Position numbers and translations under genes: made by a program
In this document: positions 1-48,929 of the stretch, in pieces
Numbering within the stretch: the stretch's first letter is position 1
Layout of the letters: the number at the start of each line of letters is the position of its first letter
NCBI RefSeq assembly: GCF_009389715.1
Contig: NW_024067666.1
Location: forward strand, 3,947,001 to 4,011,000
DNA from: Phoenix dactylifera
Lineage: Eukaryota > Streptophyta > Magnoliopsida > Arecales > Arecaceae
DNA length: 64,000 bases
Reading direction: 5' to 3'
Notes under the pieces: model-generated
The model's input: the letters and a program-made list of their open reading frames with translations, nothing else
Told to the model about the DNA's origin: nothing
Databases searched by the model: none

Positions 1-448
1 TGGAAACATCTTTGTTGTTCTTTGCGTTCTAATATGTAGAAACTGGCATGGGCACTCATTCTGCAAGTGATAGAAAGTTGTAGCTGTGAACATGTTCTGA
101 AAGAAATGAAGATCCCCATGATACCTCTTTTCTTTCTTTCTTTTTTGTGAGCAAGAGGTGGTTTACTACCCAAATGTTGGGAAATACCTGTCTAAATTTT
201 ATGTTCTGTTGTTGAGCAAAAAAGATAATAAGTAGTTGAAGTTATAGGAGTCAAGTTCAAGCGATTACGTTAGAGAGTAAAGAAGCTATCAAAATTTTTA
301 CATTCTTCATTTTCCCTTAAAATTTGAATTTTATTTTTCAGTCATCTAAACTTATTCTGAACTTTCCATAATATTCACTAAAATTATCCATGGTTAAGTA
401 ATATTTATGCACCAATTTGTATAATTTCACTCTATCGCCTGACAATGT

Positions 449-1712
449 TGTGAGGACTTGTGCGGATATGTGTTTAGTTCCATATCGCTTATACACTGGG
501 TAGTTCTTAGATACTTATGCAAGGCTAATGGTAATTATTAGCAATTCTGGATTCATGTAGGTGAGTTGCAACTTGCAATCCGAATGAGATAGGTTTTTGG
601 AGTGTTCTCGCCCTTAAGGGATTGTGACCTTTTGGCCTGACTATTGTAGCATGTGCGTCACCAAGGGTATAAGGAACATGATGACTTGATATTATACTCA
701 CCTTCCTCAGCCTTACCATAGGCATTTGTTTGGGATTCCAAAATCAATGGTAGCAACTAAACACGAGGGTTGCGTTTATTGTGGGACTTAACCCAAAAGC
801 ACCCTCTTTGCTTTGCATTGAAGTGAATCCAAATTACACGTTTCGACTAACCTTTTTAGGTGGTCCTGCATTGTCACAAATGGTATCAAAGAGGACCTGA
901 CCTATAGCCCATGTGTACTAGGGCATTGTAGTACGAGCCCATTTGGGTTGACCACGGGCTGCTTGTGATATTTATGATTGGATTTAAATAGATTTGGATC
1001 CTAAGCTGGGCAAAGATGTTAGAACTTAAACCGAAAGAATATACGAGGACCCGTGTAGCATGTATTTAGTCCCATGTCGATTATACACTCGGTAGATCTT
1101 GGATTCTTATACAGAGTTAAGAAATTTGTATAACACTTTCTAGCTGTTCTATATGGGTAAGATCGGAGATTATTATAAATGGTATCAAAGCAGACCTAAC
1201 TTATGGCCTATATAGACTAGAGTACACTGTAGCACTAGTGATTAGATTTATGGTACTTATGATTGAATTTAAATAGATTTGGACTTTTATCCTTATGAGG
1301 ATGTAGAGGCTTAAAAAGAAAGAGTACGTGAGAACTCGTGTCGGCTTGTATTTAGTCCTATATCAATTATATATTGGATAGATCTTGAGTGGATTTTATA
1401 CTACAAATAATATAAAAACAATCTTGGCTTATGGTCCATGTGGACAGTATGAATCCATTCGGGTTGACCAGAGTTGACCATATTTATAATTAGATCTATA
1501 ATACTTATGATTGGATTTGAATGGATTTTATACTTTTAATATGGCGAGGATGCCAAGGTTTAAATGGATGGAGTGTGTGAGGACCCGTACATGTATTCAT
1601 TTAGTTTTTCATCGGTTATATACTAGACAGATATTGGAAACTTATATATGGACCGAATAATCCAAATAATACCTGCTAATTAACTTTTTTGGATGAAAAG
1701 CTGATTGTTATG
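449..1712 (+). mobile_element. Tandem array of TRIM (miniature LTR) retro-elements
   Basis: Four related LTR segments alternate with three short internal segments. LTRs lie at about 449-878 (interrupted by about 300 bp of unrelated sequence), 1039-1177, 1327-1408 (incomplete) and 1576-1712. LTRs start near TGTGAGGACCCGTG. The first two internal segments begin just after the LTR with ATGGTATCAAAG, close to the plant primer-binding motif TGGTATCAGAGC that pairs with initiator tRNA-Met; in the third this part is not clear. Each runs about 150-160 bp and ends in a purine-rich stretch. There is no coding capacity, which fits a TRIM. The intact LTR size of 137-139 bp matches the copies near 11.7, 25.3 and 38.6 kb. 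The shared-LTR layout suggests unequal recombination between copies. It is an old, decayed fossil. Confidence 0.75.
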
Positions 1713-3136
1713 AATATATTATTTTATTATCATTGCTCTTCCTTTGTCTTTTCTTCTTACCATTATTCGGGTGATTTTAGCAATGGCATCCCTTTATAAT
1801 CTTAGTGGGTTATTGCATTTGTATCCCGTATAAAGTTGCTTTTTGTGAGAATATTATTCCTTTCATCCATCATAGGCCTTTCGAGTCTTTCACTGCTCTC
1901 TCTCTCTCTCTCTCTTGTCTCTTTCAATAACCTTTTATCTTCTTTTATAAATTCTCATGCCTTCATGTTGGCTGATCCAAATCTTTTCTCTACTTTCATC
2001 TCCACTCTATTCCATTGCCCCCATCTCCATGACCTTTTTTTTTTCCTTTTGAGTGACAACCCCATGACCGTTGTTTCTTTCAACAATTGTCTTCTTTTCT
2101 GGAGCACTGCTTATACCTACCACAAAGGTTATGATCCAAAGCCATGTTAGCAACGTGCGAACGTTGCCTTTATGCTTCATGTGGACGATGTACTTCCTTA
2201 TGGACCATCGTTATCACTTGCATACAATCAGTTGTTCTCCAACTTGATATGTTTAGTTTGCCTTTTCAGATAGCTATTTAAGTATTTCAACCATTATGAA
2301 TATATTGTACCAAAAAAAAAAAAACATTATGAATATATATGATATCATTTGAGCACCAACCAATTCAAATCATGTCATGGTGATCTTTCACTGTTCAAGT
2401 CATCAAATTTTTGAGATGTAATACCTTGTTCTTTTCAAGAGACCAAGTGTCACGACATTGCTTCAAAAGTTGACAGACTATGCTTATGATTCACAGTTCT
2501 CTTTCTTGCACTTATTTTATCCACTTTGTGGCATTGCGATGGCAACCACTATGCTAATGCAATCAATCTTTCACCAGCAATCAAAGCATATGAAGATCGA
2601 ATATCACTTTTGCCTACATCCTTACGTAGTTCATACTAACGATATCACCTTACCATCTATGTCTTCACACCCTATGTTGTTGATCTGGATCAAATATATA
2701 ACTTCAAGCAGGAGGTTGATATTGATGGATACATCTCTGCTGGTCTAGATGGGTGCCACATTTCCTCAATCTCGCAGGTACATGGACTCAGCAGCGTGCC
2801 CTTTCTTTAAGGCAAGGCGAGGACTCAGGAAAAGCTTCACGAGGAGCACTCCAACTGGATCCTTGGAAAGCATAAAATAATAGAGGCTTGGCTTGTAAAG
2901 TTATGGATCCCCTGGATGCTTCAACGGTTATATATTTGTATTAAATTAGGGTGCAAGCCTTTCCTCCTCCTCCTCCTCGATCTGATAAAAGCTTTAAGAC
3001 CCAATAATCGCTATCCGAGCCCGCATGGGGGTACGGCCCCTATGACTTGCTCCAATCCTTTGTTGCTGCGCTGTGCCGCCCTACACCCTGCAACCCTAAC
3101 CCTTCTTCCACACCTATGTCACCCCTATGCTCTGCG
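1713..3136. other. Intergenic, no gene seen
   Basis: AT-rich sequence with a short CT microsatellite near 1893-1917. The open frames here are short, have no recognisable domain, and largely reflect CT-rich composition. Confidence 0.5.
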
Positions 3137-3142
3137 AAACTG

Positions 3143-3175
3143 AAACCCTAACCCTAACCCTAATCCTAACCCTAG
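3143..3175 (+). repeat. Short interstitial telomere-like repeat
   Basis: About five units of CCCTAA, one imperfect, following AAACCCTAA. The unit is six bases, not the usual seven-base plant unit CCCTAAA. It lies 110 bp upstream of a TATA box that could serve the first MIR167 locus, so it may act as a promoter telo-box; that is inference. Confidence 0.6.
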
Positions 3176-3282
3176 TCTCCATCTGGATCCTTGTCTTTCT
3201 TCCCTCTCTCTTTCTACTTTATGGCTCACCCACCTTCGATGGACATGGGATCTTTAGCCACCTCTCCACCAGCTCTTCCCTC

Positions 3283-3289
3283 TATAAAT
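3283..3289 (+). promoter_or_regulatory. Candidate TATA box for the first MIR167 locus
   Basis: TATAAAT preceded by CT-rich sequence. It is the best core promoter motif upstream of the hairpin at 4.18 kb, but the 0.9 kb gap means a closer promoter or a spliced 5' part is possible. Confidence 0.35.
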
Positions 3290-4159
3290 CCCACATCCCA
3301 AGTGGGGTGGGTTTGTGAGATATTCCCATCAACTTCCTCCACTAGGGTTTTATGGTAGCCTTGCTTTGCTCTTTATGCTATTCTCACGTCTCCCATCTCC
3401 CATCTCCCATCTCATCTCTTTTTACATGCCTGACTTATATATTTGTGTGTTTCTTTTTATAATTGTTTCTTAGCTTCCTCCTCCTTCATCTACTCTACTT
3501 CCCTTTTGGGCTTGGTAGTTGCACCCAGTTTCTTTCTCTATTTTGTTCTGAAAGTTGTCGAATGATTTTTATCTCCCATCCACCATTCTTTTTATTTGCT
3601 TCTATTTTCCTTTTCATGGTGCTAGCCCAACTTGCAGTGGGAGTTCCTTGAAGGGGCTGTCTTTTTTTTTTTTTGTATTTGTTCTCATGTTTGTTTTTGT
3701 AGTCCTAGCAGACTCTTTCTTGTAGAATGGCAAGGTTGTATGGCATGTAGAGCTTCTCTTCTGGTTTGTTGAGTAGTTTAGAACGGAGAAAGCCGGGCCA
3801 TGCGTGTAGCTTAAGTTTTCTTTGCATGCTTGCATGTATTGTAACATTCACAGGTTGGAAGGTTAGCTTCCCCTTTAATTTCCTACTAGGAGGCAACCTA
3901 GTTCTTTTCTTTTCTCTTCATTAAACGTATGATGCCTGCCTATTTGCATCCTACCTTTCAGATCATTCAGTACTCATATTGTGGGCTCCTTTTCCTCCTC
4001 CTCTAATTTCCTATAGACTGGACCACCCTATGTGCTCTTGCATTCTTTAGTATTTCCCTCTCATCTAGTGCCAGTTCTCTCTCTATCTCTCTCTCTTTCT
4101 CTCTCATACACACACCCACACCCACACAAACATTTCCAATCTGATGCTTCAGGCTTCCA

Positions 4160-4310
4160 AGTGTAGTGCCCAGGGGAATGAGTGAAGCTGCCAGCATGAT
4201 CTAGCTTTGATTGACTAAAACGACTTATGTATGTGTGGTAGTTTTAAGTCAGCCAATCTTTGCTAGGTCATGCTGTGACAGCCTCACTTCTTCCCATATG
4301 AATGGGCATA
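4160..4310 (+). ncRNA. MIR167: MIR167 precursor hairpin (locus 1)
   Basis: The 5' arm holds the 21-nt mature miR167 at 4183-4203, starting TGAAGCTGCCAGC and ending ATGATCTA, identical as far as I can recall to the canonical a/b/c form. The 3' arm holds the star strand at about 4266-4288, starting GGTCATGCTGTGACAGCC, like known miR167 3p strands. The arms pair along the duplex with a small bulge near mature position 9. The 62-nt loop region pairs further (GATTGACTAAAAC against GTTTTAAGTCAGCCAATC). miR167 is known to cut mRNAs of auxin response factors ARF6 and ARF8, acting in flower, root and seed development. A good splice donor (AAG/GTGAGT near 4355) lies downstream, so the primary transcript may be spliced. 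The position is intergenic and it is probably an independent transcription unit. Confidence 0.94.
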
Positions 4311-5590
4311 TATTGCATTCTCCCATAACCAAATGAAAGGAGGGTAAGAGACAAGGTGAGTATATTCCTTCTACCTATGTTACATAACATAACCATGCCT
4401 GCTGACAATTCTTGTGTTTCTTTAATCTTTTTCCAAGCATCAGGAAATGAGAGTTACCACAACCTGTTGCTCTGAAACAAAGAGAAGCCTCACTTGTATG
4501 TTGTGGTTTCATCTTTTTTTTTTTTCTTTTCTTGTCCTTCTATTTTGTTTTCCTAGTTAATATTTGGAACCCTGTGGTGTATCCATCTGGAGGTACAGTT
4601 GCCTGGTTGTCGCAGATGAGTCCAGGTGGTCCTCATGAACCAAAGGTCCTCTTTTTTTTGTGGTTGGTTACATCAGTCTCAGTTCAATGGATCATACTCT
4701 GTGGATCGAGAGCCTTGGTTTTGCTCCTGTTTCCAGTCTTTCAGCATTGGGAACATATCTTTCCTATCTGTAGTTTTGCTGTTTTGCACTTAACAGCAAA
4801 GCAGCTAACAATATTGTTATCATGGCTGCTAATCCTCTGCTAACAAATGGATTGATGTGATATACTTGTACCAAGGGCCAACCTTGGCCGTCTGATTAAT
4901 ATGCCAACTGTCTTTGTGAAGGAAGCTACTAATTTCAAACCAGTTCGGTCTGTCCATTTGTACTCTACTGAGATATGTCATCAGAATTTCTGTACTTAGG
5001 TATCACACAGTACGTGATATGTCGTTTCCGTTTTCTTTCTTTTCATTAATAAGCAAAGTTTCCATTATCTTTCACTTGGTATAAATTGCTCCTTTTACCA
5101 TCATCAAAAGCCTAAGTTTATACTCAAAAGAGGAGCGCGAGCAAGTTAATATAGTTTGCAATCAACCATCCGTTAGCAAAATTTAAAGTAATAGGCAACA
5201 AGAACACTATAATAGAAGAAAAGAGAATTCTCTGAACTACTCAAGAACCAAAACTGTTCAGTCTATTCTGAACATTTTTCTACCAATGTCGTCATTTGTT
5301 TTTTAAGAACATCATGTAAAAATAAAAATCAGTGGCATAATAATGTCTGTTTTACCAAGTAGTGCCTAATTGATTAACTCCCTCTCCGAAGTTCTAAAAC
5401 TCTACCACACTGGGCTCATTCAGACTGTTGATGAATGTCAAATCTTTGTTTCAGATTTATAAACATGAATTTCAGGCACTTGCAGATGTGCTGAAAGACC
5501 TACCAATTTTTGCCTTATTAAAACTCCTATGATTCTTAAACTTGTTCAAGAGAGCTTTTTGAAGAACCTGAAATCTGCAAATGATTACAA

Positions 5591-5766
5591 GGTATTTGAG
5601 AATTGAAACCTTTGTATAAATGCCAAGCCAACTGCAGTATTGGTTCAGTGCAAGTTTGGAATTTGTGAAGGAATGTAGAATTACATATTAGCTGATTGGA
5701 GATGGAATAGGGAATTTGAACTTTCGTATAAATGCTAAGCCAGTGGCTATATTGGTTCTGTGCAGC
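5591..5766 (+). repeat. Imperfect direct repeat, period about 115 bp
   Basis: Segments 5591-5653 and 5705-5766 share an ordered series of words, including TATAAATGC, AAGCCA, TATTGGTTC and GTGCA. Identity by eye is roughly three quarters or more. It looks like an old local duplication with no coding role. Confidence 0.55.
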
Positions 5767-8522
5767 CTTTTTATTCTCTTTATTTATTCTTTCAATCAAG
5801 CATTGCTTTTTTTATGGAATGAACTATCCCTTTAGGTTACCAAGGATAAAAAATTTAGAGAGAGAGAGTGAGAGAGAGAGTGAGAGCTAACATACTTCAG
5901 AAATGGGGTAATCATAGGGAAAAGTACAAACATAAGGTGTGCAATAAGGACCGGGGTGCAGTAACCTGCGTTTGGGGATGTGAGGGTGCACACCTTGTAC
6001 TCCAATTGCTCTCTCATCATTCTTGAAAGAGAAAAAGACATAGGATTCAGTTTGTATCTTTTGCAAGAATAACTGATTTTCTTACTGATTTTCTTTCGAC
6101 TTCTTCAGCTTGTGTGATCCAATGGTAGATTCGTGCCAAGGAAGGTGAATCTTTCTTTCACGACATGTCATGCAACCAGTGAAGATGTCGTACCTACAGG
6201 TGGTGGTAGCAGTATGCCTTAAGCTTGCTCCCCTTGTCACATTTCATCCTCTTGCTACGGCTTTTGGTCAAAAAATGTCCTTCGAGGACTGCGGTAAAAG
6301 TTCTCGGACAGCGGTGGATTCAGGTTAGCTCTTAATAGAACATAAGTAGAATAGGGGTGGACCACATGGATTTCTATTCTACGTTGGATAGGCTCCCGTA
6401 GGGCCCCACCAAACAACTAGACTTACGTTTCGTGCAAGCATGTAAATGCCTAAAAGTCTGAGCATGTGTGTTGATTTAGTCATAGTGAGGGAAAACAATC
6501 CGGAGAAGGATAGATTTTGTTTTGTTTTGCATCATAGCAATAAAATTATGTTATGGTCATGCATTCATTGTGTAGAAACTCCCTGATAAATAATAATGGT
6601 ATTGAACAGAATATGAGCATATAAGTCTTAAATAGCTACTTAATCTATTAAATTTATTGTCAACAAGGGCAACCAGAGTCACCAGACAACCTTTTGCAAA
6701 TTTTTGGTTAGTAGCTGAATATCTTGCTTCTTATAATTACATTTACATTGCAAGGCTTCATTGCCTTTATGCAAGCTTGACATGTGTAGATCTCTGTCCA
6801 TCATGTGAGCCTCATATATTCAAAATAAAATGGATTGTTTGAATAATAATGTGCTAATTATCATAATTACATTAATATTATTTGGACATGCATGCAAGGG
6901 ATGCGGAAGCCACCATTTACTTTTTTTCTCATGTAATCACCACCACCGCGGCGCCGCCTAGTTGCTAATTATGATCTATTTCTGAAACTTGACTAATTAT
7001 TAGAAAACAATGTGTTAGGTCATCCAATCCAATTTTTTGTGCGCTTTAGGGGGCTCTCTGACCTCATTTGTAAAGAGAGAATTCTCCTTGAAATTCTCCA
7101 TGAGACTTGTGCCTATGAGACTCTTGCCAATGTAATATCAATGGTTTTTTCACTATTATTGTCTGATCAATGACTAACATGTGGCTTCTAGATGGCATTT
7201 TATTCTTCTATTCTCTACTATTAAAATGAAAATCCTCTTAGTCTTCATCTGCGGTCCCTTGCCATGCATCAGTGTTGAAATGCAAAGATCACAACCATAA
7301 AAGGCCATATGCTAACCCTACCCCTAATATCTAATACAGTTGATAAATTAATGTGCATGGTTCTCCTCCCATATATTTTACCACTTTGGCATGCTACAAG
7401 GTTCGGTGCTCATGAGAATGTCTGCTCCATTCTTTCAATCCAAGTCAAAAGAAGCTTTTATTTGGTATTCTTTTTGTAACCTCTTATATGTTTAACTATG
7501 CCAAGCTGCAGTTTTATAATTGCTTGATAAGATGTTTGATGTGTTATTAGTCCATATGATTAGAGGTCGATGGAAACTTATTCAACATTAATGTCATGTC
7601 AATAACTAAACTTACACTAAATGATGAAGAAACTTGAGGCCAGGCTCCTGAAGAAAATAGAAAACTAGAGGATTGAACGTATGCCACATAGAATTCGACT
7701 ATATTCTCGTCTTAGTCAAAAGCAGGGACCTCAGGGTCTCAAAAAGCTACAGCCTACAGATGTGAAATTTTGTTCCCCACCAATGTCATGTAACAGATCG
7801 ATAATTTATTCAGAACGCATAAGATTAGATTTGCTTTTGAAAAGAAATTTCAAAGAGTCATTAGATGGCATCCCATTTAATTAATTAGCGTTTTCCATGG
7901 AACAAACAAATAGGAAGGCGATTCGAGAAGTAATCATGGATTTCGTCCGCCTCAGAAACCAAAATTCTCCGAATGAAGCCTCTCCCCATTGTTGGGCAAT
8001 AGATCATAGAACTAGGAATATGCAAAAATATACTCGAGTGAATGATATTGAGCTGTTGTAATGCAGACATCAATCTTATGGTGGTTGCACAATTAGAGAT
8101 AAACATTTAATGATAGAATGCAACTAGAACAACAAACACAACATGGCTCAAAGCTTAGTTACGTTTATCTCTAAATAGGTATGGTTGTAAGCTTTATTAG
8201 GTTAAGCCTAATTAGAGACTCAATTCTATTTTGAGGGGGTAACTTAGGACAGTGCCCATGATCCAAAAGCAGATTGTAATCAGACATATCAATTTCTTTG
8301 TTGCTTGAATTAGGTTGTTGGTGATGCAGACTGAAGTTACAATGCGTACCATATGGAAGCTGCTGCCTTAAGCACCTACTTATGATCAACTGACACCACC
8401 ACCCACAGAGGTCAGCTGCATGCTCCCAAGGGATGGTGGACCAAGGCTAACTAAGAAAAGCAGTCATCTCCTAACAAAGAAAGATGCTCATGCGTAATAA
8501 GCTAAATGCCAATGCCAAAGCC

Positions 8523-8525
<3 letters not shown>

Positions 8526-8563
<38 letters not shown>
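8526..8563 (+). repeat. (GA)19 microsatellite
   Basis: An uninterrupted AG/GA dinucleotide run of about 38 bp. The open frames across it encode simple Leu/Ser or Arg/Glu repeats and are not genes. Confidence 0.95.
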
Positions 8564-8565
<2 letters not shown>

Positions 8566-9475
8566 GAGTATAAACAAAGCTAAAATGGTATATAGAAGCA
8601 CAAGTGAGGGGGGACCATCTTTCATGGACTCTTATGTGTTGTTGCATAAGGTTCACAAAAATGGATGAGGAGAGCATCTTAACCTAACAAATGCATGCAT
8701 GTGACCCCTCGCTCTTTCTCTCTATCTCTCTCTCTGGCTAGTAATGTTGTGGGGCATCACTAAATTACCACATCAGCTCCTCATTCCAACATGGCAAGAG
8801 GGGATTAGTGTGAAGGTTTTGATTGAATCGTAACATGCCATGGGTCTACTCAGTTACCCTATCGGCTCGTCATAACAAGATGGTACGAGCGAATTGGTAT
8901 ATCTCATGGTTTGCAATATCGGTATTACAGTAATGGTGCGATACAGTACGGTAAGTCTGGTACTGGTTAGCATAGTATATATGGTGCAGGAAATCATGAT
9001 ACAGCTCACGAGATTGGTGCAATATTCAAGAAATGGTCAAATAATGAGCTATATGCAACTGTTTATCGATGTTGGTATTAAAAATAAATAAATTTCATTG
9101 CCATGTGTCGTGTGGAAATTGGTGCTTCACACTACAGCCCCACCATGCACCAAACCGGTCCTACAAATAGTGCCAATCCACTTATGCCATATGGCATGGA
9201 GCTCCTTTCCCATGGCATCTAGTTTAGTTGAACGGAGCGTGGAGGTACAAGAAAGGGCCCCTCGAAAAGCAATTAAAGGCATGCAGTATATTTAGAAACC
9301 CTAACTGCATGGTGGTGGCCTGGGCATGACAATATTCAATATTTTCTTTCGCTCTTGGGAGGCTGGGACCACAATATTTAGTTGTTTTTAGTCTCCTTTC
9401 AGCCTCGGCATGAGAACAAATACCAGAGACCAAGTAAAAGAGATCAGTCCCCCACCCCCCATCCCTTTCTCCCTC

Positions 9476-9482
9476 TATATAT
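9476..9482 (+). promoter_or_regulatory. TATA box of the second MIR167 locus
   Basis: CTCTATATATCTCC after a C-rich stretch, about 140 bp before the hairpin base. That predicts a transcription start near 9505-9515, with the stem-loop close to the transcript 5' end, as is common for plant miRNA genes. Confidence 0.6.
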
Positions 9483-9614
9483 CTCCTTTCCCCACCCCTC
9501 CTGCCCACCATAGCATCCTTTTGAGGCCAGTTGCAGTTTCTTCTCTTCTTTCCTCTCTCATCTCTCTCCTTGCCTATTCCCTCCTCTCGCGGCCACAGCT
9601 TTGATGGTATATAT

Positions 9615-9745
9615 CATGCATGTGGTGCACCACGAGCAGCTGAAGCTGCCAGCATGATCTGATCTCTTCTTTCCTTTCTTCCAAATCTTGGATGAATATG
9701 CACATCAGATCATGTTGCAGTTTCATCTGCTGATCGGAGCACCAA
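9615..9745 (+). ncRNA. MIR167: MIR167 precursor hairpin (locus 2)
   Basis: Mature miR167 lies on the 5' arm at 9641-9661, starting TGAAGCTGCCAGC and ending ATGATCTG, the form ending in G known from the d-type group. The star strand is at 9708-9727 (GATCATGTTGCAGTTTCATC). With a 2-nt 3' overhang the duplex pairs throughout except for one bulged C at mature position 9 and a few G-U pairs. The lower stem continues: GGTGCACCACGAGCAG upstream pairs with CTGCTGATCGGAGCACC downstream. The loop is about 46 nt. The expected targets are ARF6/ARF8-type auxin response factors. It has the same strand and family as the hairpin 5.4 kb upstream, but a different star strand, loop and mature 3' base, so it is not a recent copy. 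Confidence 0.95.
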
Positions 9746-9849
9746 AAAACCCTAAACCCCCAAGTCCTTTCATACCCTAAATCCCTGCTCGGACTTCTCG
9801 AGGAACCCCTAGAAATTGAGATCTACAGAGAGAGCGCAAAATGGTTAGT

Positions 9850-11375
9850 CTTTTACTGAGCAGTTTTATCTTCAATATGCCCATAATTCTTACACTTTTT
9901 GGTTTGCGATGCTGGTACTGATGCTAATCTCTCTCTCTCTCTCTTTCTCTCTGAAGACATGAGGGCTGATCGGCAATTGAGAGAAGATGTGGGAAAGAAG
10001 AGAAGACAGAAGAGGTACTTCTTAGGTTTTAAAGTGGAGGGGATACGGCTTTGGTCTCTCACACATGGTTGGTACTTTTGAGATCTTGACCTTGGAGGCT
10101 GAACCTTGCATCCTTCCCTGTGAATTGCTATCGAATTCCATTCTCTTGAACTTTCTTTTGCTTTCCATCTTTATAGATTATTGCTCTCTTAACTTGGATA
10201 ATACTTTCTCTAATAACCGTTTCCTAAGGGCTTTCAACCTTGAATTTACATATATTGAGAAAGAAAAATTAGTGGCAGTTGCATGTACATAATGGTTTTA
10301 TCTATTTCATGGATTTTGTCCTCTTCTCACATTTTTACTCTCAACCTCTCTCTCTGTATTCATGTATGGATGGGACAGCACGGATGCATCTGTAACCTAT
10401 TTTCTATATCTTCGCATGCATGCGTGCGTTTTTCTACAATATTCCTCGCGTCAATCTAGGAAAATATGGCTTAGAACATCTGTAGCTCATCTATGTCTGT
10501 CATACATGTAACCTGGATCTGAAATTTGATTCTTTTGGTTTCCTTACATTCTATATCAAGGCTTTAAAAAAGCCGAAATATTACATAGAAGGTATATATG
10601 AGGCTACTGAAAGTTACATCTACTTGTACGAGAGAAAAGATCTTTGACTTTGTGAAGTGCTGGCGTGAACATTTAACGCAGTAAGCCTCGGAGAAAATGT
10701 CTGCTTTTTTTCTTTTCTTGTTATGTCCTTCCAAGGTTAGGTAAGTGAAAGAAGAAGATAGAGATTGCACCAAAGTTTGTTGTTTTCCCTTTGGCTTGTT
10801 GTTTGGTACTTTCTCTCTGTAATCTTTTTGAGGCCTTACAAAGAAATTCCTTTCCAGCATCTCTCTCTAATTGCTAGCTCTCGCCCTCCCCTCCCCCTCT
10901 CCCTCTCCCTTAATTAATATGTATATCGGAAGTAGCTCTCTTCCTCTTCAAGAAGAGCCTTCCCTCACTCCGATGCTCCTCATCCATGTTGGTCTGTTGG
11001 CATCTCTCACCACCCTGTTTCCACCCTTCTCTCTCTTGCTTCTGGTGGTACTTTGTCGCCTTGTAAGTTTCTTGGAAGCCTCAGGGGAGAGAATCACAAA
11101 TATCTTTTATGATTTGGTTCCTAGTACCTACATGGCCCTTAATGTCCAACTCACGGGTGGAAGACACATGGAAACTGTCCTGCTTCATCTAGTGTTTGTC
11201 TCCATGCAGTTCGAGTCTTGTTCTCATGAAGTCCAGAATCCTTGCCGCCTTGCTTGAGCTTAGCATCAAAGTGGCATGCCTATCTTTGTATAACTCCAAA
11301 AGTTAGACCCCATGGCACTTGTTTCACTAAAGGCCTTGTTCAAAATTGGAGAGTTGGAAGGCAGACACGAGAAGA
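9850..11375. other. Intergenic downstream of MIR167 locus 2
   Basis: Probably includes the rest of the MIR167 primary transcript. There are CT-rich tracts at 9929-9953 and 10892-10910. No recognisable protein or RNA gene is seen. Confidence 0.45.
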
Positions 11376-11814
11376 GTGGGGAGAGGGAGGGAGTTCTTCT
11401 AATTCTAGTAAGGAATCTCTTTTGGAGAAGATTTTGGATATTTATATAGGACTAAAAAATCCAAATAATACCTTCCGGCTAGCCAATTTAGGTGTGATCC
11501 TGAGTTGTTACGAATGGTATTAGAGCGAACTAGGCTCATAGCCTATGTGAACTAGGAGACACTGCAGCATGGGTTAATGGAGGCTGACCATGGGCCTATC
11601 GTGGTGCTTGTGATTAAATTTGAATGGATTTGAACCTTTAGCCTGAGCAGAAGGTCAGGGCTTGAATGAGGGGAGTATGTAAGGACTCGTGTGGGCATGT
11701 GTTTAATCCTACATTGGTTATTCGCCGAGAAGATCTTATGTATTTATACAGGACTAAGAAACTCAAATAATACCTTTTAGCCAACTATTTTGGGTTAGAT
11801 TCTGGGTTATTACA
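11376..11814 (+). mobile_element. TRIM retro-element
   Basis: A 5' LTR ends at about 11512, with its outer part strongly diverged. It is followed at once by the tRNA-Met-like primer site ATGGTATTAGAGC and an internal segment of about 165 bp ending in a purine-rich tract. The 3' LTR is 11678-11814, 137 bp, running TGTAAGG to TTACA. The same family appears at 0.4-1.7, 25.2 and 38.2 kb. It is non-coding by nature and looks like a mostly complete but aged copy. Confidence 0.75.
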
Positions 11815-14638
11815 TATAAAGCCTATTGAAAGGGGTATTTTTTTTTCTATTCTTTTTATTAGACTCGTTCGAACTTTGATGTCTTAATATCTATGGTACC
11901 TAACTGTCTAGTCCAAAAAAATTTTTGGAGACCTAATCTAATAACTTAAATTAAAAAATTTCTATTAACATTTTCATAGAAGACCACTCACAGGACTCAG
12001 CAAAGTCTTATTAACTCAACATGCTTTGCATTTGCCCCATGTCATAGAAAACCTTTATGCAAGGCTAAGTTCTGTATAGCATCAGCAAGAGCACCATAAC
12101 TTATGCTACAATAAACTGAACATGTCTGTGGGACAGAATAAGATAATGTGGATGAATTTACAAAATACTCTTCAACTACTACGAGTAGTTCCTATTTAGT
12201 TAATTATAAGCTCACAAGATCTTGTGTTGTGAACCCAACAAATAATAAGATCATCCACAAGGTATTAAGAAAAATTTCCCTTTTTTTTCTCTCTCTCTCT
12301 TGTTATCATTACAGACATCGAACCTAGATGATTTCAGTGATTCATTAGTGTTCCACATGCAGAATTATCTTATCATTAGCTAATGTGCAGCACATGAAGA
12401 GCACCAGTTCGCCACATGTTATCTCTGTTACATTACAATATAGCTGATCTCCGAACACATTGCCTTTCATAGTATGAAACGTTCCTCATCATATATATTA
12501 TCTTACTGAATGCATGGTTGTGAGAGTGTATGGGTTTAAAAAATTTGATAGTGACTTAGAGCACTCCTTTTTAGTTGGAAGATATGGAAAATGTGTCTCA
12601 TGCTATCCTCTGGGGATTCTTTTAAAAACTGAATTATGTCATACATCTGTATCGTTAAAATATATAACAATACCCGAGTCTTGTCTGTTAGTTCATGCTT
12701 GGCAGCAAAGAGAATTCGATGGTAAGATATCATCCCACATATGTTCAATGATTGGAGACTTTCAATTATTTATGGAATGTAACTGGGTGCATCATGCTGT
12801 TGATTCAAAAGAAGGATTGAAGCTGACAACAAAACAGGCTTTAAAGAGGGCATATAAAAAAGTAGGTACGTTCCCAAAATTTCACATTTACTTAGGTGTT
12901 GATTAGGAGGGAAGAATGTTGAGATTTGTCAAAACTATAACAATTTCAAAGATTACTTCTAACTCTAAATGACCGAGCCATTCTCTATAGTCTACCGATG
13001 GTTCTATTAGAATAGGAACCATAGCTAGAGTCAAGTTATTGTAGGCATTCTTTGGGACCCAAGCTAGCCCTGACTGACCACAACTTTATTTGAACTAGTC
13101 TAGACATTGACATGCACACTGATGTAACACGAACAAGCATGACACCAGTTGGCCTGATATGAACATTTCTTGCCAAATGGTTCATCTGCTTAACTCATTC
13201 ATGATGATGTTACAAATTATTATCTTATGTATCTATAGAGAAACAAGCATATAGTTATGCAGCAGCATGATTCATGATAATTATCGAATTATGAGATGGT
13301 TCAGGATAAAAACAAAATTAAAATGAGTAAGTTTATTTTTCTTAAGGGAATCAAGGGAATGATTGAGTGGAAGTTATCCAGTTCCTATGCAATGAGCTGC
13401 TTTATAGCTAAATATTGATGGTGACATCAAATATTTCACGGTCCTCTTCGAATCATTAATGGATGAACAGATATGGTGATAATGACATTTTAGACATTCA
13501 TAAAGAAGAAGAAAAAAAAGAAGCAGCAGATTACATAGCGGATTGATCAAAATAAGTTAGGTAAGAGAAATTTATCAACCCCCATCCCCTGGGGGACCCC
13601 CAAATACACACACCAAAAGAGAATAATAATAATAATAATAAAGAATAAGAAAAGAAAAGAAAGTAAAAGTGGAATAAATTGAACATAATTAAAATTTAAG
13701 ATATTTGTTAAAGATTGAAGATGAAGTAGATTTACATTAAGCAGATAGGAGAAACCTTCATTAAGAAAGATAAGGATGAAATAGTTAGAGGGGATGAATT
13801 ATATGGATAGGGGAACTGCTAATAGACTTCATAATTAAATTTTCTTTACATTAAGTGAAATGCTCCCAAAGTAATTCAGTTGCTAAAATTCATCTCAAAC
13901 AGAAGCGAAAAGGAAAAAAAGGAAAATTGGGAGACCAAGAAAGCTAATTGAGCTAACGTAATTATCATATAATTCTGGACCCAGATAAGAATTTCTCCAT
14001 GACCTAAGTAGTTGTTTTCTGTCACTATTATTTGCATTTTTGTTTTTTTTTTTTTTGAGGCACCATTATTTGAATATGATATGAGGATTTCATAATATGC
14101 GATAATGCACTGGACAAAAAGGTTAAAACTCTCTAATCTGCATGTGTTGCTAATGCTTAATGGAACAAGCTGCAGGAGGTGGTCTAAAATCATCACCTTG
14201 TCGGTTTTGTCTCAATTAGCAATTCAGAACCATTCGTGCACTAGAATGAATAGAAATAAATCCATGCAGGCTTTGGGTTAAGCTATCACCTAAGTTTTTC
14301 TCGAAAATGGGACTGGGCAACCATTGTGATAAATAAGCTATATGTAGCAGAAGCCTTAGACCTCTTCAAGAAATCAGAAGAAAAATTTAAATATTGGCTA
14401 GTTTCACTCTGACCAACAAAAATAACTTGGAATGGTAATTTTTGGCATCTCAATCGTTTCTTTCCATGAATTATGATAGTTTAAGATCCTCTGCCATGAC
14501 TAAGTTGAAATTAGTAAATTTATATGAGTTCTCTTAAGTTGCTTAGGTCTATGGTTTTTCCTTTCACATCAAGATTGTGCAGCCTGTGTATGTGTACATA
14601 AGGACAGTGCTATGTGATTGCTTCCGAGAGAGCGAGAG

Positions 14639-14693
<55 letters not shown>

Positions 14694-17100
14694 AATGCTT
14701 TGATTCATTCAGGTTTAGGCATTTGTATAATCACTTACTGAGTGAATTAAATTTTCCAGGTTTACTAAGATTACTTGTCCATTTTTCCCTGGCTGTAGTG
14801 TGAAACGTTGTTTCAACTAATCTACAACACCGTAATGGTTGGTCTTCGTACACGTAAAAATAAACATAGAACAAGCCTTGCACAAGTCCAATTGTTTTTA
14901 AACGGAAAATATTGCTAAATATGAATCATGAAAATACCAATTTCAAAGAAGAAATTAATGTGGAATACTTTTCTGCATGCTAAGTTGCATAGAAAATTCC
15001 ACACTCGGCGTTAACAATCCTTTCTCTCTTAAACTGTTGGATGAGCTAAGAATTTGAACGAATATAATATTTAAATCTTCCAAATACACAATAAATGACC
15101 AAAAGCTGCTGCAAAACAATGTGTCTAAGTTCTATAATTTTCTCAGGGCTTGCTGCTCTTTTTTATGCATATAAAAATGAATGACTAAACATATGATATC
15201 TGTAGATTAACTCTTATCATCCCCGCAAGATAATAGTTCTCCCTGATCCTGCACAAAACAAACATATATATTGCTTCTACTTGCATGCTTGTCCAAATAA
15301 TTAAGTTGTTAGTTGCATGTCAAATCTTATGTGCATATTACATATACATATACATACATGCGTGCATACTTAAATACATACATACATACATACATACACA
15401 CCCACCATCCTTCATTCCTACATCCAAAAGAAAGGCTGCCATCCTTATTGGCTTAACCACTGAAGCTTTCTAATCACTTGACTTCTCGCATCTGGTGTAT
15501 CCCATTATTAAGTTGGTGAAGTACGTTTCTAGTGAGTGGAAGGAAACACTCTCGACAGGGATGAGATTGATTGTGAGAGGACGCATGGTTATCGACACTC
15601 TTTATTAAAGGACGGTAGGTCTGGGTTTGGTTGGTTGATAGTAACCGCGCAACGACGTCCAACATCTAAAGGAGATGATAAACGGGACAGAACTCTGTAC
15701 CTTATCCTCGTGACCTCAAGGAGATGACAAACGGGTCGTCTTCTCTCGCTCATGAAAAATATATATATAGGAAGAATAGAAACACCTTCGCCAAAAGAAA
15801 TAAAAGAAGGAACACCTTCATGGTACTTCTGGTTTGAAAAAAAAAAAAATAACCTGGCTATATATGCATTTATGTTGGTGACAGATATGAATAGGTGATA
15901 TTTTAAGATGGGTTGCTACGAGAAAATCCAAACTTTTGAACGTGATCTACTACCTATAAACTAAAAAATATTTATTTCAGAAGATTTGTTTGGCTATATC
16001 AAGTTACTACAAACAAGCAATTTAAAATAATATAATATGTACGTAATAGTTAGATTACTTGATATACAGGTTAAAGGTCTCCAAAATAAATGGGTTTTGA
16101 TTTATAGGTAGCTTGCAAGTAATGGATCTATATCTCCCTTAAACTGTGTTTTGAAATGCACATCTTCACATTACACCTAACTGGATCTGATCTCAAATCT
16201 GATTAATCTTATTTAATCTATCTTACGAAATAATAAATCATACTCAAGGTGGATCTTGTTTTGGAATCCCCACACTTTAAATTTTACCTAACTGAATTGA
16301 GCCGCAAATCTCATTAATCTGTCTGTAGTCTACCTTTTATATAAAACTAGTAATCAAACACATTACATCTGTAATGCATGTTTAGGAAAAAATAAATTAA
16401 CAAAAAATAAAGAAGTAGGAATAAGCGAAGTAAAACACAAGGATGGAGAAAAGGCATTTTTCTCTTTTGTTTTTTTTAAATTAATTTCAGATAGAATTCA
16501 ATGGGTTAGGAATATTGATGAAAGATGGGTAGAGATTTTTTTTTTTAAATAGTTCAACTACTAGTTTATGATGTCTAGGAGAAACCATGTAGATGAGAGG
16601 ATGTGTTCCGCATGTTTTCTCCTGAGAAGATATTAGTAGCAAAATCAGGAAAAAGTTGGGAGGATGTGTTCCTGCTGCTAAGTTTGGAGAACATATTTTC
16701 TCCAACTGCCCCTTTTTTCTCCATATCATGAAACTTTGTCTGAAATTAGATGTTATTCATCCTCAAACTTCCTTTGAGAACTTATATGATACGGCTTGGA
16801 TTGATTTGCAATCCAATGGAAGTGGGAGAAAATACAAGAATAATTTCTTTGCAAGAAGGAAGATAACTTTCATTCAAAACCTGAATGCCTCCTCATTACA
16901 ATTCATGCAAGTCATGGGTAACATGAAAAGACAAAAGAAAATAAAAGGTCAAGAGTCACTTTGATATAGGTAACTCACACAATAAAAGACATCAAAGCTA
17001 AAACCAAATTCTCTTAAAGAATTTGAAAAGTCAAAATACACCTGCCTCTTAAAATACCTATAACTTCCAACCATAACTCTGATTTTAATGTTCTTGAGCT
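11815..17100. other. Intergenic, no gene recognised
   Basis: AT-rich. It includes an open frame of 130 codons at 12514-12906 (plus) with no domain I recognise and no supporting neighbour exon, an AAT run near 13624-13640, a long GA run at 14643-14692, and CATA repeats near 15376-15398. An imperfect repeat (about 16165-16210 against 16270-16330) and a repeated short motif AAGGAGATGA.AAACGGG at about 15669 and 15718 are also present. Confidence 0.4.
14643..14692 (+). repeat. (GA)25 microsatellite
   Basis: A continuous GA dinucleotide run of about 50 bp with a slightly interrupted GAGAGCGAGAG lead-in. It is long enough to be length-variable between individuals. Confidence 0.95.
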
Positions 17101-17188
17101 TGTTGGAAAGAAGAAAAAGAGACCTACAACTTTCATTTTAATAACTTTTTCAAATTCGGCCATTTAATGCCCTGAAAAATGACATAAA

Positions 17189-17471
17189 TTGTATGGCGTC
17201 CATGCACCTGCATCATTATATCTTGGTTGGAGAAGGAGGTCCTTCCAGAAATCTGCTCCACTGTTATTTGCAACTATCTGTTGGGCATGTTGGATGAAAA
17301 GGAATACTCTATTTTCTCTACCATATCTCCTCTCTTGTGTTTCTCTGATCTTCCTTCTATTCATATGTATTGCCCTTTCCTAAGCATCTAAATGTGTCTA
17401 CTTTGTAATTATTTTTCTGATTTGCAATAAAATTCGGGTGGCTTCGATCCTCCCTTATCATTAAAAAGAGG
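17189..17471 (+). mobile_element. LINE (L1-like) 3' end fragment
   Basis: The plus-strand frame contains LLFATICWACWMKRN, resembling the W..W..RN motif near the end of plant L1 ORF2 polyproteins. It is followed by a stop and an untranslated tail with TTTGTAATTATTTTTC, GCAATAAAATTCGGGTGG and a short A-rich end, a layout typical of plant LINE 3' ends. Most of the element is missing, so it is a truncated non-LTR relic. Confidence 0.55.
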
Positions 17472-17474
17472 TGC

Positions 17475-19825
17475 AAGCATATTATATATCTAACTTCTTG
17501 ATCGTATTTTTTTGCAAACATTCATGAGCGAGGGATTAAGGATAGTCCATTCAAAAAATTAGACAAATGGAATCTAACATGAAATATCTCTCTTCCATTT
17601 AAGTGAATAAGCTTGCTTTAAGCGCTGACATGTCTTTTTAAGAGAAATATGGTGGAAAAATTTTAAACTTGGATACTTTGAGAATGGATGACAATGCTTT
17701 CTTCCTATAGCCACCTAATCCCTTATTTTTCTTATAAAAATTTCCCCCTCTCTTTCTGTCTCTCTTGCTTCTTCTAGTTTATTTCAATCATTTCTTTCCC
17801 CGAAGATTTAAATAACAATGTTTTTCTTTATATTTGATCTTTTGAAATCTTTATTGACAATTATATCCATCATTATTTATCCCAATCTATGCATTTTGAA
17901 ATTATTAATTAATAAAATAGTAGTTATAATTATAATTATTATCATTATAATAATATTATAATGAAAAATGATTGATCAAAACAGAAAAATAACATTGTTA
18001 TATTTGTCTCCTTTCTCCAAGGTTTTAATAATAACAAGGTCCACTGTAACCAGTGTTATTGAAAAAGTTGCAATCATAGTGACATCCATTGTCAGCATCC
18101 AACCCATATGCACAGCAGATGCTGGACTTATTAGTATAATAAATGATAAGAAAGATGTTAAAATTAGTCTCATAAGATTGCTATAGGCCACAACAGCACA
18201 TTCCTAAGCTCAATTTCATGGTTAGAAGTGACCGGGAAATCATGCATGAGTGCCATGGAGGTCAAGTGCAACACTTTGGCCAGCTTTAATAAGTTACAAA
18301 TTCTCTCCCTAAAGATGACCTGTGTGTGAGTCAGGTCAAGGGTGGGTCAAGGTTGGCAGAGTGCAGTGGGCCTGCTACAGCATAAAAGGTTAATGGGCCA
18401 CAGCCCAGTGCTCCTCGACCCGTTCAGCATGGAGTATGGGCTTAATTCAAATCTTGCATGCTAACACTTAAATTTGGACCGAACTCAGTCTATGTTGTGA
18501 ATTTGAAATGGGTTGAGCTGCCCGAGCCTTCGACTCGAACATGATGCGAGATCAGACTGAAAATTCCAAATCGACATCCGAGCCAACTTAGATCGTCCCA
18601 AGTGGAAATTATACAGGATGGACCGAGTCAGCTTGAGTCAGCCCAAGTCTACCTAAACAAATTTTTTGAGTTCAGAAGACTAATCCACAAAGACCACGGT
18701 TGCAATTTGGATGTTGACGGCCTGTCCATCATTTTGACCAGAAGGGGTTGCAACTTTGCTAGGTTGGGTCAAGTCAATGAAAAAAGCTGCCTTTATCTTC
18801 ATATAACCAACCCCCTTGTTTGAACTTGTTTTTTTCTTTTTTCATTTCCACCTGCTTCAATGTAACTGATGGGGAAACCATCATCCATTTTAAGAATCTA
18901 AACTTATTCTTGAGTACCGTGTGTAGGTTATTTTAAAAGGAAAAGGGTTACACGCTTCATGGACCAGAAAGGTCCCAAATTCATTTCCAAGAAACTTGCA
19001 GCGATGGATTACTACTACTTTTTGGATTCTCATTTCAATTGTTTATCCAAGATGACCTTGACCTCTTATGTCACAAACAATATCCGAGATTATCGAAGAA
19101 TTTTAGTATCCTTTCTCTGCGACAGATGAATGCCCTAGCCTAAGTTTCAAACTATTTACAATCATCTGGTCTCTATCTAGGGACATGGAGGTTTGTCTCT
19201 CCAGTGGGGAGTCCTTAGCAAGCTTTTGCTTCCTGGTTGCCAACAAAGTATCCGAGATCATCCAACTCATTTCCAACTAGGTCAATCCTCCATCAAAATC
19301 ATAACATATTATCCACCAACTCTAGTTTAAATCATGCCTGACCTTGACTCGGCCGATCCATTTGCAACTCCTAGCTTTTTATTTCTCTTTTCTTTTTTCT
19401 CCATCACTTTTTTTTTCTTTCAATCATGGTCTTTCTTCAACTCACTCATCTATTCCAAATTAGAAACAATCTGGTAATTTGTTAGCTATGTTTCCACATA
19501 CCCTTTTATTTCATCTTCCTTGCACACAAGCTAAGCAGTTACCTTCCTACAAACTCTAGTTTTCTTTTGTTTCCTCTTAGTTATTAATAAGAACTCACCT
19601 TTTTCTCTCGAACATGACACAAATTCATCTTCACTTGCAACAACAACAATAACAAAAACTACAACTGCACAGCAAATCCATCAAATTTGGAATAAGTTTC
19701 ACAAATTATTGATACATACATATTCAAACCGAGATGACCTTAATATGTCTATCTTAAAAATTAAAAACAAGCACGAGAAGACCTTTGAGAGAGAGAGAGA
19801 GAGTCCTAACAATCAAGAAGGCAGC
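17475..19825. other. Intergenic, downstream of the Ca2+-ATPase gene
   Basis: No gene recognised. The stretch at 18300-18830 has moderate GC and many GGGTC/GACCC and CCAAGT/ACTTGG words, as in decayed transposon ends, but no terminal repeats could be fixed. A GA run at 19786-19803 lies just past the ATPase stop codon and may be in its 3' UTR. Confidence 0.4.
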
Positions 19826-19831
19826 AAACTT

Positions 19832-22800
19832 CTAATTGGAAACAGGTATGCATTTGGCAACCCAACCAATCGGCCATGAGAGCATTGCGATTCCAGAACA
19901 GAGGTTCCACTGGCCCCAATTTAACCTTGTTGTGCTTGCAAATCTATTTAAAACCTCCACCATCACCACCTGGAGGATCAGAGTAAATGCCACTATCCCT
20001 AAGAAGAGCCAATTCTTGTGAATACCCTCAAACACATTCTTCTTCTCCAGATTTCTTGCATTGAACTCGTTAAATATTTGGCAAAGAACGAAAGTATTAA
20101 AGATCACTGTGTTCTTGACCCTCTCATTGCCTCCAAAAAATGATCCTCCCTTCAGCTGTAGCACCAACAGAACAATGATCTGAAACAGAGCTTGGGCAAT
20201 GAGATTCCTCCACATAACCCTTGTTATAAGTGGCTCAATCCGACCTACAGGAGGTTTCTTCATCAACTCCGGCGTTGGTCTTTCGGTGGCCAATGCCAAC
20301 GCTCCCAACGTGTCCATAATTAAGTTCACCCACAGAAGCTGCACAGTTGTTAATGGAACCTTGCCAGAGGAAATCGCCGCAATACAATTGATCGCAAGCG
20401 CGGCGATGTTCACTGTAAGCTGGAATTGGATGAACTTCTGAATGTTATTATAAACACTCCTTCCCCATCTCAGCACTGTCACAATTGAATGGAAGTTATC
20501 ATCCAGGATGACAATGTCCGAGCTCTCCTTTGCGACGGCAGTCCCTTGGATCCCCATGGCTAATCCAACATCAGCTTCCTTCAGGGCAGGGGCATCATTC
20601 GTGCCATCGCCGGTGACCGCAACAACATGACCCTTTTGTTTCAAGCACTGCACCATCAAGAGTTTATCGAAAGGAGAGGACCTCGCCATCACACGAATCC
20701 TATCGACCTTTTCCAACCTTTCCTCCATCGAATAATCTCGAAATTCTTTTCCTTCTACTACTGTTCCATCTATATCAGCATCGTAAGGTGTAAGTATTCC
20801 ACATTCAGAAGCAATGGCTTTTGCTGTGAAGATATTGTCGCCAGTTATCATTTTAACATCTACACCGGCTAATTTGCAAGCTTTGACTGCTGATCTCACC
20901 ATCGGACGGCATGGATCCTTCAGACCGACTAATCCTAATAATGTTAATTCATTTTCTTCAAGTTTGTAGATATTATTTTCCGCGGAAATCTCGTTATCTT
21001 CTCTCATCACTTGTTTGCAGGCGAAAGCAATGCATCTAAGACTACATGCTGCCATACCATCTATAATTTGTTCAAGCTTTGATCTTTTCTCTGCATCAAT
21101 TGCTACGACTGTACCGTCACTCTCATAATAATTGGAACACCTAGCCAGAATCATCTCGGCTGCTCCTTTCCAATGTGATATAGCAGTCGTCTCTTCATCT
21201 TCCTTCCTAACAAGAACTCCACTGCGCTTCTTCTCTGAATTGAAAGCCTCAACACAGAGGATGGTGCAGCTCTGCTTCAGTTCATGAAATTCTAATCCCA
21301 GCTCCATCACTGCCCAGGAAAGAATGGCCTTCTCGGTTGGGCTACCAGTAAACTCTGGCTCTGACGCCGAGTTTGACTTGTAGACAGACCCTGCCGTGTT
21401 GAAGGCCGCTCCTTGGTGAAGCAACTCAACGACGCTTCTTGCCACAAACCTGACACCGTTTACAACTTCTTGTTCTCCCACCCAAAACTTGACAACCTTC
21501 ATGCGATTTAATGTCAAGGTGCCAGTCTTGTCGGTGCAAATGGTGGTGGTCGAGCCCATGGTCTCGCAAGCCGAGAGATTTCGGACCATAGCCTGATCCT
21601 CCATCATCCTTTTCATGGAGTAAGCTAGAGTGAGCGTCACCGCCAGCGGCAAACCTTCTGGGATTGCCACAACTATGATGGTAACTGCAGCGGATATATT
21701 ATCGACCATATCATTCATCACATTGTCAAATGTCGCCGTTCTTCTGTTGAACTCTCGCTGCCCGTTCTCATCCTTGGTGCTCCCGGTGAAGTAACGGATG
21801 GAGAGCACAGCAAGAACGATGCAGGCAATCGTCATGCCGATCTTCCCGATTTTCGATGTTAGCTTCTGGAGTCTTTCTTGCAACGGCGTTCGCTCATCGG
21901 TGTCGCGACTGATTGAGCCCATCATTTCACCCCAGGTAGTGTTCATGCCCACAGAGGTGATGAGAATGCGAGCATAGCCATCGACCACCTTGACTCCAGA
22001 GGTGAGGAAGGGGTTTCGATCACCATCGATTTCTACATGGTTGCTCTCCCCTGTCATGCTCGATTCGTCAACTCGCAACGAATAGCCATCCAGGAACAGC
22101 CCGTCGGCAGGGACTTGATCGCCGATTTTGAGGAAGACGACGTCCCCGACTACAACATCGAAGATGGACACATCTTGACGACGGCCACCTCTAACGACAG
22201 TAGCCTTGAGGACGTATGATTCAGCTGAGAGCTTGCGGAACCTCCGGTCTTGTCTGAAGTTGCTGAAGGCCGACACGGCGACAACTAAAAATATGGCAAG
22301 AAATATACTCATGCCGTCGTACCATCCACCCTTGATGCCATGTATTTTGATACCGAAGACAAGAGAGAGCACAGCACAGCCAGCAAGAATGAGAAGAAAA
22401 GCATCGTTGATCGCATCGAGGATGAACAGAAGGAACCCTTTCGGGATCGGCTTGATGTACGTGTTCGATCCGAACGTTTTGCGCCTGAGTTGGAGATCGT
22501 CATGGCTGCCCCGAATTCCAGTGTCAGCATCAGAAGCCAGCATGGCAGCAAGACCGCCGACGCCCCCGAGAAGTCGGAGATCCTCGAGGCTCTTCTTCTT
22601 CATTAGATTCATCAAGCTCTCCATGTCAACGTGAGAGAATGGCGTCTCCTCGCTGCTTCCATCTTCATCATGGAAGGATTGGATGTTGAGTGCAGTGAAG
22701 GACGGGCTTCGGAGAACTCCGACGAGAGCCCTCCGAGGGAGAGATCGCATTGCCCGGCAGGAGAGGATGACGACACAGGCGATGCGCCATCTCTTGCGAA

Positions 22801-22849: not shown

Positions 22850-22940
22850 GGAGGAGGTAGGTGGTGTACGCAGCAGAAGTTTAGAAGTGGTCGTAAGGTT
22901 TTCTTGGGGTGTGGCTGCGTGGTGTTCTCTGGACGTTGGC

Positions 22941-22950
22941 TTAATAAATA
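22941..22950 (-). promoter_or_regulatory. TATA-like box of the Ca2+-ATPase gene
   Basis: On the minus strand it reads TATTTATTAA, about 92 bp before the chosen ATG. That predicts a start site near 22915 and a short leader, and it argues against using the upstream in-frame ATG at 22987. Confidence 0.5.
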
Positions 22951-23698
22951 GAAAGCTGAAGGGCTTAGCTGAAAAACGGAATACCAACTGACGCTGGTGT
23001 GATGATGTCGAGAGCCATGACGAAGAGCTTATTGGAAGAGGAAACGCTGACGACGGGCCAAAGAGTAATAATGAGAAGCCTCAGGGAAATTGTGTGGTTT
23101 GTTGAGATGTTGAATTCTCTCATCTGGCGTAATATTTAGATAGACTTTTCCTTTCCTATTCCAGGGGCTTGTTGTGAGTACGTATCAGATGATAGAATGA
23201 TGGAAACATTTCATTGGTTCATGGGATCCAATTATTTTTGCTATTTTTAAGATACGTGAGGGTAGCCTTGCCTCCCTTTTTTCCATCAAGAAAAATTTTC
23301 AGATTCGAGCGTAAGAAATTGTAATTGAGTTCAGCACCTATGCGTGAAAAGTTCTCTGAACTTTTGAGATGTAGAGAGAAGCAAATTTGAGTTTACATGA
23401 AAATTTCTATGCACGAGTTCAAGAGGACTATGATTTTTTGAGTGCATCTTCTTTGTGCAGAGACACGAACATAACATGCCAATTACGATTAAGAAGTCAA
23501 TTTGCATGCATGAGCATTGCGAATTGCATTGAACTTTGGTGAGCATAGCCAACAAGAAATCTGAAAGTTCACGTAAAAATTTCTATATGTACAAATATAT
23601 ACTAAAGCGAAAATAATTCCTTTTGATATGTTTATTTCTTTTTCTATAAAAGAGGTCCATAAATAATGTGATATACAAAATAGTGAGCATAATATCTC

Positions 23699-37241: not shown

Positions 37242-37366
37242 TGGAATCCTTTTCTAAGAGAAGTTTCTAAAAAATTAAAGGTTTGTCGCGTTGGGGATGG
37301 GAGGGCGTCGGTAATTATACGTACGGAGAAACTCGACACGTTCTTTAGAGGAAGACACGTTTCTAC

Positions 37367-45750: not shown

Positions 45751-48929
<3,179 letters not shown>

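Follow-up and report, generated by a model that had tools for sequence, protein, structure and literature searches.

Are two closely spaced microRNA (miRNA) genes of one family a recent duplicate, the two ends of one transcription unit, or separate genes that have stayed side by side for a long time? The question is raised by 64,000 nucleotides (nt) of date palm DNA (Phoenix dactylifera, assembly GCF_009389715.1, contig NW_024067666.1, positions 3,947,001 to 4,011,000, forward strand; hereafter, the window), in which two MIR167 hairpins lie on the same strand. miR167 tunes auxin responses and sets the levels of ARF6 and ARF8, so it affects flower, root and fertility traits. With a probability of about 0.8, the window holds an old same-strand tandem pair of the rice MIR167a/MIR167h kind, whose members probably have their own promoters and would supply one pool of miR167 against ARF6 and ARF8. 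The coordinates of the features are collected in Table 1. Apart from Table 2 of PMC4602222, statements taken from published papers refer to the accessible parts of those papers.

The core of mature miR167, TGAAGCTGCCAGCATGATCT, occurs twice in the 64 kb, both times perfectly and on the plus strand (4183-4202 and 9641-9660), in a search that allowed up to three mismatches. Shuffling the window 100 times gave a mean of 0.01 copies and a maximum of one, and none of the 100 shuffles contained two. The loci are 5,458 nt apart from start to start. They differ at nucleotide 21 of the mature sequence, which is A at 4203 in locus 1 and G at 9661 in locus 2. The A form is that of osa-miR167a-c and zma-miR167a-d, the G form is that of osa-miR167d-j and zma-miR167e-j, and the 22-nt form ending in GA is listed for bdi-miR167c,d among others (PMC4602222 Table 2). 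The family-defining mature sequence UGAAGCUGCCAGCAUGAUCU(A/G) is thus present, exactly and on the 5' arm, at two of two loci.

Plant miRNAs are annotated by a stable hairpin and a miRNA/star duplex with 2-nt 3' overhangs and few mismatches or bulges. Both loci have a stable hairpin, these overhangs and few such flaws. The fold of 4165-4310 reached -67.6 kcal/mol (z-score -7.96) and that of 9615-9745 reached -56.6 kcal/mol (z-score -6.33); no shuffle out of 200 equalled either. An earlier note on this DNA had described two complete hairpins that differ in the 3' base of the mature strand, A against G, and had proposed folding them as a check. The description proved accurate, and the fold gave a stable duplex at each locus. 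The antisense strands fold too (locus 1, z-score -9.10, 0 of 200 shuffles as good; locus 2, z-score -3.77, 1 of 200), and the strand call is therefore decided by the mature sequence, the fold being silent on it. Nor does fold strength alone mark out the loci, because five of 1,826 segments of 140 nt, taken on a 70-nt grid over the 64 kb, fold better elsewhere than at either locus. Locus 2 ranked sixth, and locus 1 ranked eighth through a minus-strand segment; the best plus-strand segment near locus 1 ranked 165th because the grid cut through the hairpin.

The register of the duplexes was taken from the predicted pair list. At locus 1, 4183-4203 pairs with the star at 4266-4288 (21/23 nt), with one mismatch and two 1-nt bulges in the star. 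At locus 2, 9641-9661 pairs with 9708-9727 (21/20 nt), or 9641-9662 with 9707-9727 (22/21 nt), and the one flaw is a C that bulges from the miRNA strand. A sequenced small RNA of the legume Acacia, acr-miR167a-3p (also given as gma-MIR167a-p3; five reads), agrees letter for letter with the 23-nt star predicted for locus 1; in the paper that describes it, it was matched with gma-MIR167a (PMC3981707). Six star strings were searched for in the literature, the 20-nt star 2 as RNA not being one of them. The RNA form of star 1 and its 21-nt start were matched in this one paper only; the DNA form of star 1 and three strings of the locus 2 star had no match there or elsewhere in that search. Since the star of locus 1 is also that of a eudicot, the precursor type of locus 1 is very old. 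Purified Arabidopsis DCL1 cuts pri-miR167b to 21-mers and 23-mers (PMC3799435), and these are the sizes predicted for the locus 1 duplex.

How far have the two genes diverged from each other? A local alignment of the hairpins ends at the 20-nt core, and in a global alignment only scattered columns agree outside it. Between the stars, similarity is confined to 8 nt, one of them mismatched. The loops align with a score of 12, reached by 108 of 200 shuffles (shuffle mean 11.6), and the 200-nt downstream flanks align with a score of 17, reached by 106 of 200 (shuffle mean 17.2).

A number of results weigh against the reading of an old pair with separate promoters, some of them only at first sight. 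The 200-nt upstream flanks scored 31, a value reached by 3 of 200 shuffles, and the 1-kb flanks beat all 200 shuffles both upstream (38 against a maximum of 37) and downstream (34 against 33). The best alignments behind these three scores consist of a CT or T-rich repeat. As nothing is aligned beyond the core except this repeat, the comparison supports an old duplication, and a recent tandem copy was ruled out, with the alignment limited to the 20-nt core and the flank matches assigned to simple repeats. The earlier note had likewise argued for an old rather than a recent duplication and for differing stars and loops; both points stand, the former also on account of the eudicot identity of star 1. 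A second result of this kind comes from Rfam, which gave no match at gathering score in the window. In a scan below threshold (E up to 10, positions 3900-10200), the MIR167 family RF00640, with a cut-off of 100 bits, scored higher on the minus strand of locus 2 (9630-9735; 47.0 bits) than on its plus strand (28.3 bits), and it did not match locus 1. The 3' arm of the RF00640 consensus holds the complement of miR167, identical to the string given for gma-miR167h in PMC4602222 Table 2. To judge from this string, the precursors behind RF00640 look to have been annotated in antisense, a possible reason for both loci missing its cut-off. A failed cut-off against a consensus that is antisense to miR167 says little about membership in the MIR167 family.

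The remaining points on this side concern the promoters and the species itself. The motif CTATAWAW has 10 sites on the plus strand of the 64 kb and 9 on the minus strand; with 10 on the plus strand, the site 0.9 kb before locus 1 could be there by chance. Auxin response elements (TGTCTC/GAGACA) were found at two positions between 3001 and 11500 (4348 and 11197), neither of them in the kilobase before either hairpin. A date palm study placed three MIR167 genes on contigs, and in its accessible text miR395 and miR396 are the only date palm tandems named, with no tandem MIR167 reported for this species; a tandem MIR167 on poplar chromosome 2 is mentioned there (PMC3738527). This report speaks against a universal presence of the pair.

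The two genes probably each have a promoter used by RNA polymerase II. Two separate promoters are more likely than one unit, to judge from the TATA-like site found upstream of each hairpin. It is distinctly improbable that one long primary transcript, beginning upstream of locus 1 and perhaps containing introns, spans both hairpins and yields both forms of miR167, even though the hairpins share a strand, a candidate splice donor follows hairpin 1 (its 9-mer AAG/GTGAGT has a single plus-strand copy in the window and three on the minus strand) and no Pfam match was found in the 10 longest open reading frames (ORFs) of the spacer. Polycistronic pairs of miR156 and of miR166 in maize were confirmed by rapid amplification of cDNA ends (RACE), though their members lie <200 nt apart, and in the accessible part of the same paper the maize pair miR167a/g does not appear with the polycistrons so confirmed (PMC2773440). 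Here, 5.3 kb separates the hairpins, and a TATA-like site stands 166 nt before mature 2. That one copy is a decayed, unexpressed relic can hardly be right: the mature sequence is intact, the star arm matches it and the z-score is below -6 at both loci, and unconstrained arms would be expected to lose their pairing just as the loops and flanks have lost their similarity.

A further possibility concerns the length of the products. miRNAs of 22 nt can trigger secondary (phased) small interfering RNAs (siRNAs). If locus 1 gave a 21-nt miR167 opposite a 23-nt star and locus 2 a 22-nt form with a bulged C, only locus 2 could start secondary siRNAs on its targets. The predicted duplexes (21/23 and 22/21) and the Arabidopsis pri-miR167b products mentioned above agree with this idea, bdi-miR167c,d is listed as this 22-mer, and the same sequence was recorded as acr-miR167d with 266 reads (PMC3981707). 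The idea nevertheless seems unlikely, as the sequence of locus 2 is equally able to give the 21-nt form of osa-miR167d-j, and no report of phased siRNAs triggered by miR167 was found in the accessible parts of the literature followed up.

With two promoters and a single miR167 pool as the preferred reading, DICER-LIKE 1 would excise the 5p strand from each hairpin, and the two miRNAs would direct the cleavage of messenger RNAs for auxin response factors of the ARF6/ARF8 type. PMC4602222 Table 2 lists 27 target sequences, and the pairing was predicted for four published ARF sites picked from among them; these sites come from other species, and the energies are given without a shuffled control. 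Over all forms, the values lay between -30.6 and -32.2 kcal/mol (A form, -30.6 to -31.4; G21 form, -30.6 to -31.1), and the predicted duplexes thus show the pairing with ARF6/ARF8 sites that belongs to the MIR167 family. The A21 and G21 forms differed by at most 0.3 kcal/mol at these sites; with the 22-nt form added, the difference rose to as much as 1.1 kcal/mol. As the energies are nearly equal, both forms should have the same targets, and the two genes most likely differ in the site and strength of their expression instead. An ungapped search of the window for miR167 target sites with up to six mismatches found none on the plus strand; on the minus strand, apart from the complements of the two loci, it returned a single site, at 79, with six mismatches.

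Are such pairs known elsewhere? The earlier note had described miR167 loci as usually dispersed and a close pair as worth recording. Such a pair is not unusual, as pairs are in print for rice, poplar and grape (PMC3072343) and for maize (PMC2773440), and miR167 is counted among the families that have grown by tandem or segmental duplication (PMC2812943). The members of the rice pair miR167a/miR167h lie at 25443203 and 25447013 on the plus strand of chromosome 12 and are called tandem (PMC3072343). As in the window, the A-type gene is upstream and the G-type gene downstream on the same strand, a few kilobases apart (starts 3.8 kb apart in rice, 5.5 kb here). The mature types, order and strand are those expected of an orthologue of this pair. 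Rice precursors a/b/c belong to clade I, as does gma-pre-MIR167a, and d/f/g/h/j to clade III (PMC4602222); the split of osa-MIR167a and osa-MIR167h between clades I and III is a feature of the rice precursors, with which the window was compared by mature sequence only. In maize, miR167a/miR167g on the plus strand of chromosome 3 are listed as a cluster (PMC2773440 Table 2). They also run from A-type to G-type, but at a distance of 1,809 nt and with precursor g in clade II, not III. In grape, miR167d and miR167c lie at 7490493 and 7495686 on the plus strand of the unplaced 'Chr Unk', 5.2 kb apart, and the poplar pairs a/b and c/d are called tandem (PMC3072343). These three pairs (vvi-MIR167d/c, ptc-MIR167b/a and ptc-MIR167d/c) are same-strand, 2.6-10.2 kb apart and A-type upstream in 3 of 3; downstream, grape has a C-type gene and poplar has A-type genes, unlike the G-type gene here. 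Arabidopsis has four MIR167 loci and no close pair in the accessible part of PMC3072343. The window offers a neat case of an old MIR167 duplication, though an ordinary one, of a kind already described.

A broader reading can be put forward tentatively, with the odds somewhat against it. The tandem pair may be ancestral to monocots and eudicots, with its order kept: an A-type gene with a 21/23 duplex upstream and a divergent gene, here capable of a 22-nt product, downstream. It would then be a long-lived two-gene unit that splits its output by length and expression domain, and not the outcome of independent tandem duplications. This is suggested by the A-type position upstream in all four pairs whose members differ at nucleotide 21 (rice, maize, grape and the window), by the clade I upstream members in poplar and by the legume identity of the locus 1 star. 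Both members of each poplar pair are A-type, so that these pairs do not discriminate by mature sequence; their upstream members, b and d, form a clade I pair (PMC3072343, PMC4602222). The evidence from order is weak: four pairs one way are expected by chance in 2 of 16 cases, rice and maize, both grasses, do not count as independent cases, and the grape sequence is unplaced. No statement of such an order rule was found in the accessible literature, which was mostly without subscription journals. The pair alone changes no established view. A close pair of divergent precursors, as in rice, is nevertheless a handy marker for true MIR167 orthologues across flowering plants, and it raises the question of what preserved the second copy, its expression pattern or a 22-nt product.

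Table 1. Coordinates of the MIR167 pair and of candidate elements around it (positions in the window)
Feature	Positions	Strand	Basis
TATA-like site (CTATAAAT), candidate core promoter, 901 nt upstream of mature 1	3282..3289	+	consensus match only
MIR167 hairpin 1, A-type mature (cf. rice miR167a-c)	4166..4309	+	fold and pair list
miR167-5p of locus 1, 3' end A	4183..4203	+	exact core; 21-mer identical to osa-miR167a-c (PMC4602222 Table 2)
Predicted miR167-3p (star) of locus 1, 23 nt	4266..4288	+	2-nt overhang register; identical to acr-miR167a-3p (PMC3981707)
Candidate 5' splice site (AAG/GTGAGT), 44 nt past hairpin 1, possible pri-miR167 intron	4353..4361	+	inference
Spacer between hairpins, 5,313 nt	4310..9622		no protein-coding gene detected in ORFs scanned
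TATA-like site (CTATATAT), candidate core promoter, 166 nt before mature 2, with a pyrimidine-rich stretch after it	9475..9482	+	consensus match only
MIR167 hairpin 2, G-type mature (cf. rice miR167d-j)	9623..9744	+	fold and pair list
miR167-5p of locus 2, as a 21-mer (3' end G, 9661) or a 22-mer (3' end GA, 9662)	9641..9662	+	exact core; 21-mer identical to osa-miR167d-j, 22-mer to bdi-miR167c,d (PMC4602222 Table 2)
Predicted miR167-3p (star) of locus 2, 20-21 nt	9707..9727	+	2-nt overhang register

A protein gene between the hairpins was considered and rejected, as none of the 10 longest stop-to-stop ORFs of the spacer (70-130 amino acids) matched Pfam at E 0.1. In the flanks (three ORFs in 1-4150 and seven in 9746-19800), the only two Pfam hits had E values of 0.05 and 0.034, both under the curated cut-offs. 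The protein gene closest to the hairpins that could be recognised in the scanned ORFs is a Ca2+-ATPase-type pump (Pfam) on the minus strand at 19832-23080, a single open frame of 1082 codons apparently without introns, whose best match among solved structures is Calcium-transporting ATPase 8, plasma membrane-type. In rice, the calcium pump gene LOC_Os10g28240 may lie near osa-miR167f on chromosome 10; the literature gave no coordinates for this, and no claim is made from it.

Telobox motifs are linked to Polycomb. The telobox (AAACCCTA or its complement) occurs near both hairpins, at 3143, 3343, 9296 and 9747, which are four of the eight copies in the window, and a short telomere-like repeat lies at 3092-3174. 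Arabidopsis MIR167a and MIR167d carry trimethylation of histone H3 at lysine 27 (H3K27me3; PMC3072373).

Farther along the window, the minus strand at 61500-61720 forms a strong hairpin (-88.4 kcal/mol, z-score -7.73, 0 of 200 shuffles) built of CATGGGAAAG-like repeat units. A small inverted-repeat transposon may lie behind it, although a search for ungapped inverted repeats of at least 25 nt found none there. ENT and Agenet domains (Pfam) on separate minus-strand ORFs at 55565-59111 perhaps belong to one gene of the EMSY-LIKE type. An exon-like ORF at 45751-46137, also on the minus strand, matches the ARF/ARL family of small GTPases (Pfam). A proline-rich ORF without a Pfam match lies at 36786-37253, and this region holds the strongest-folding 140-nt grid segments of the 64 kb, with -72.9 kcal/mol at 36821 on the plus strand.

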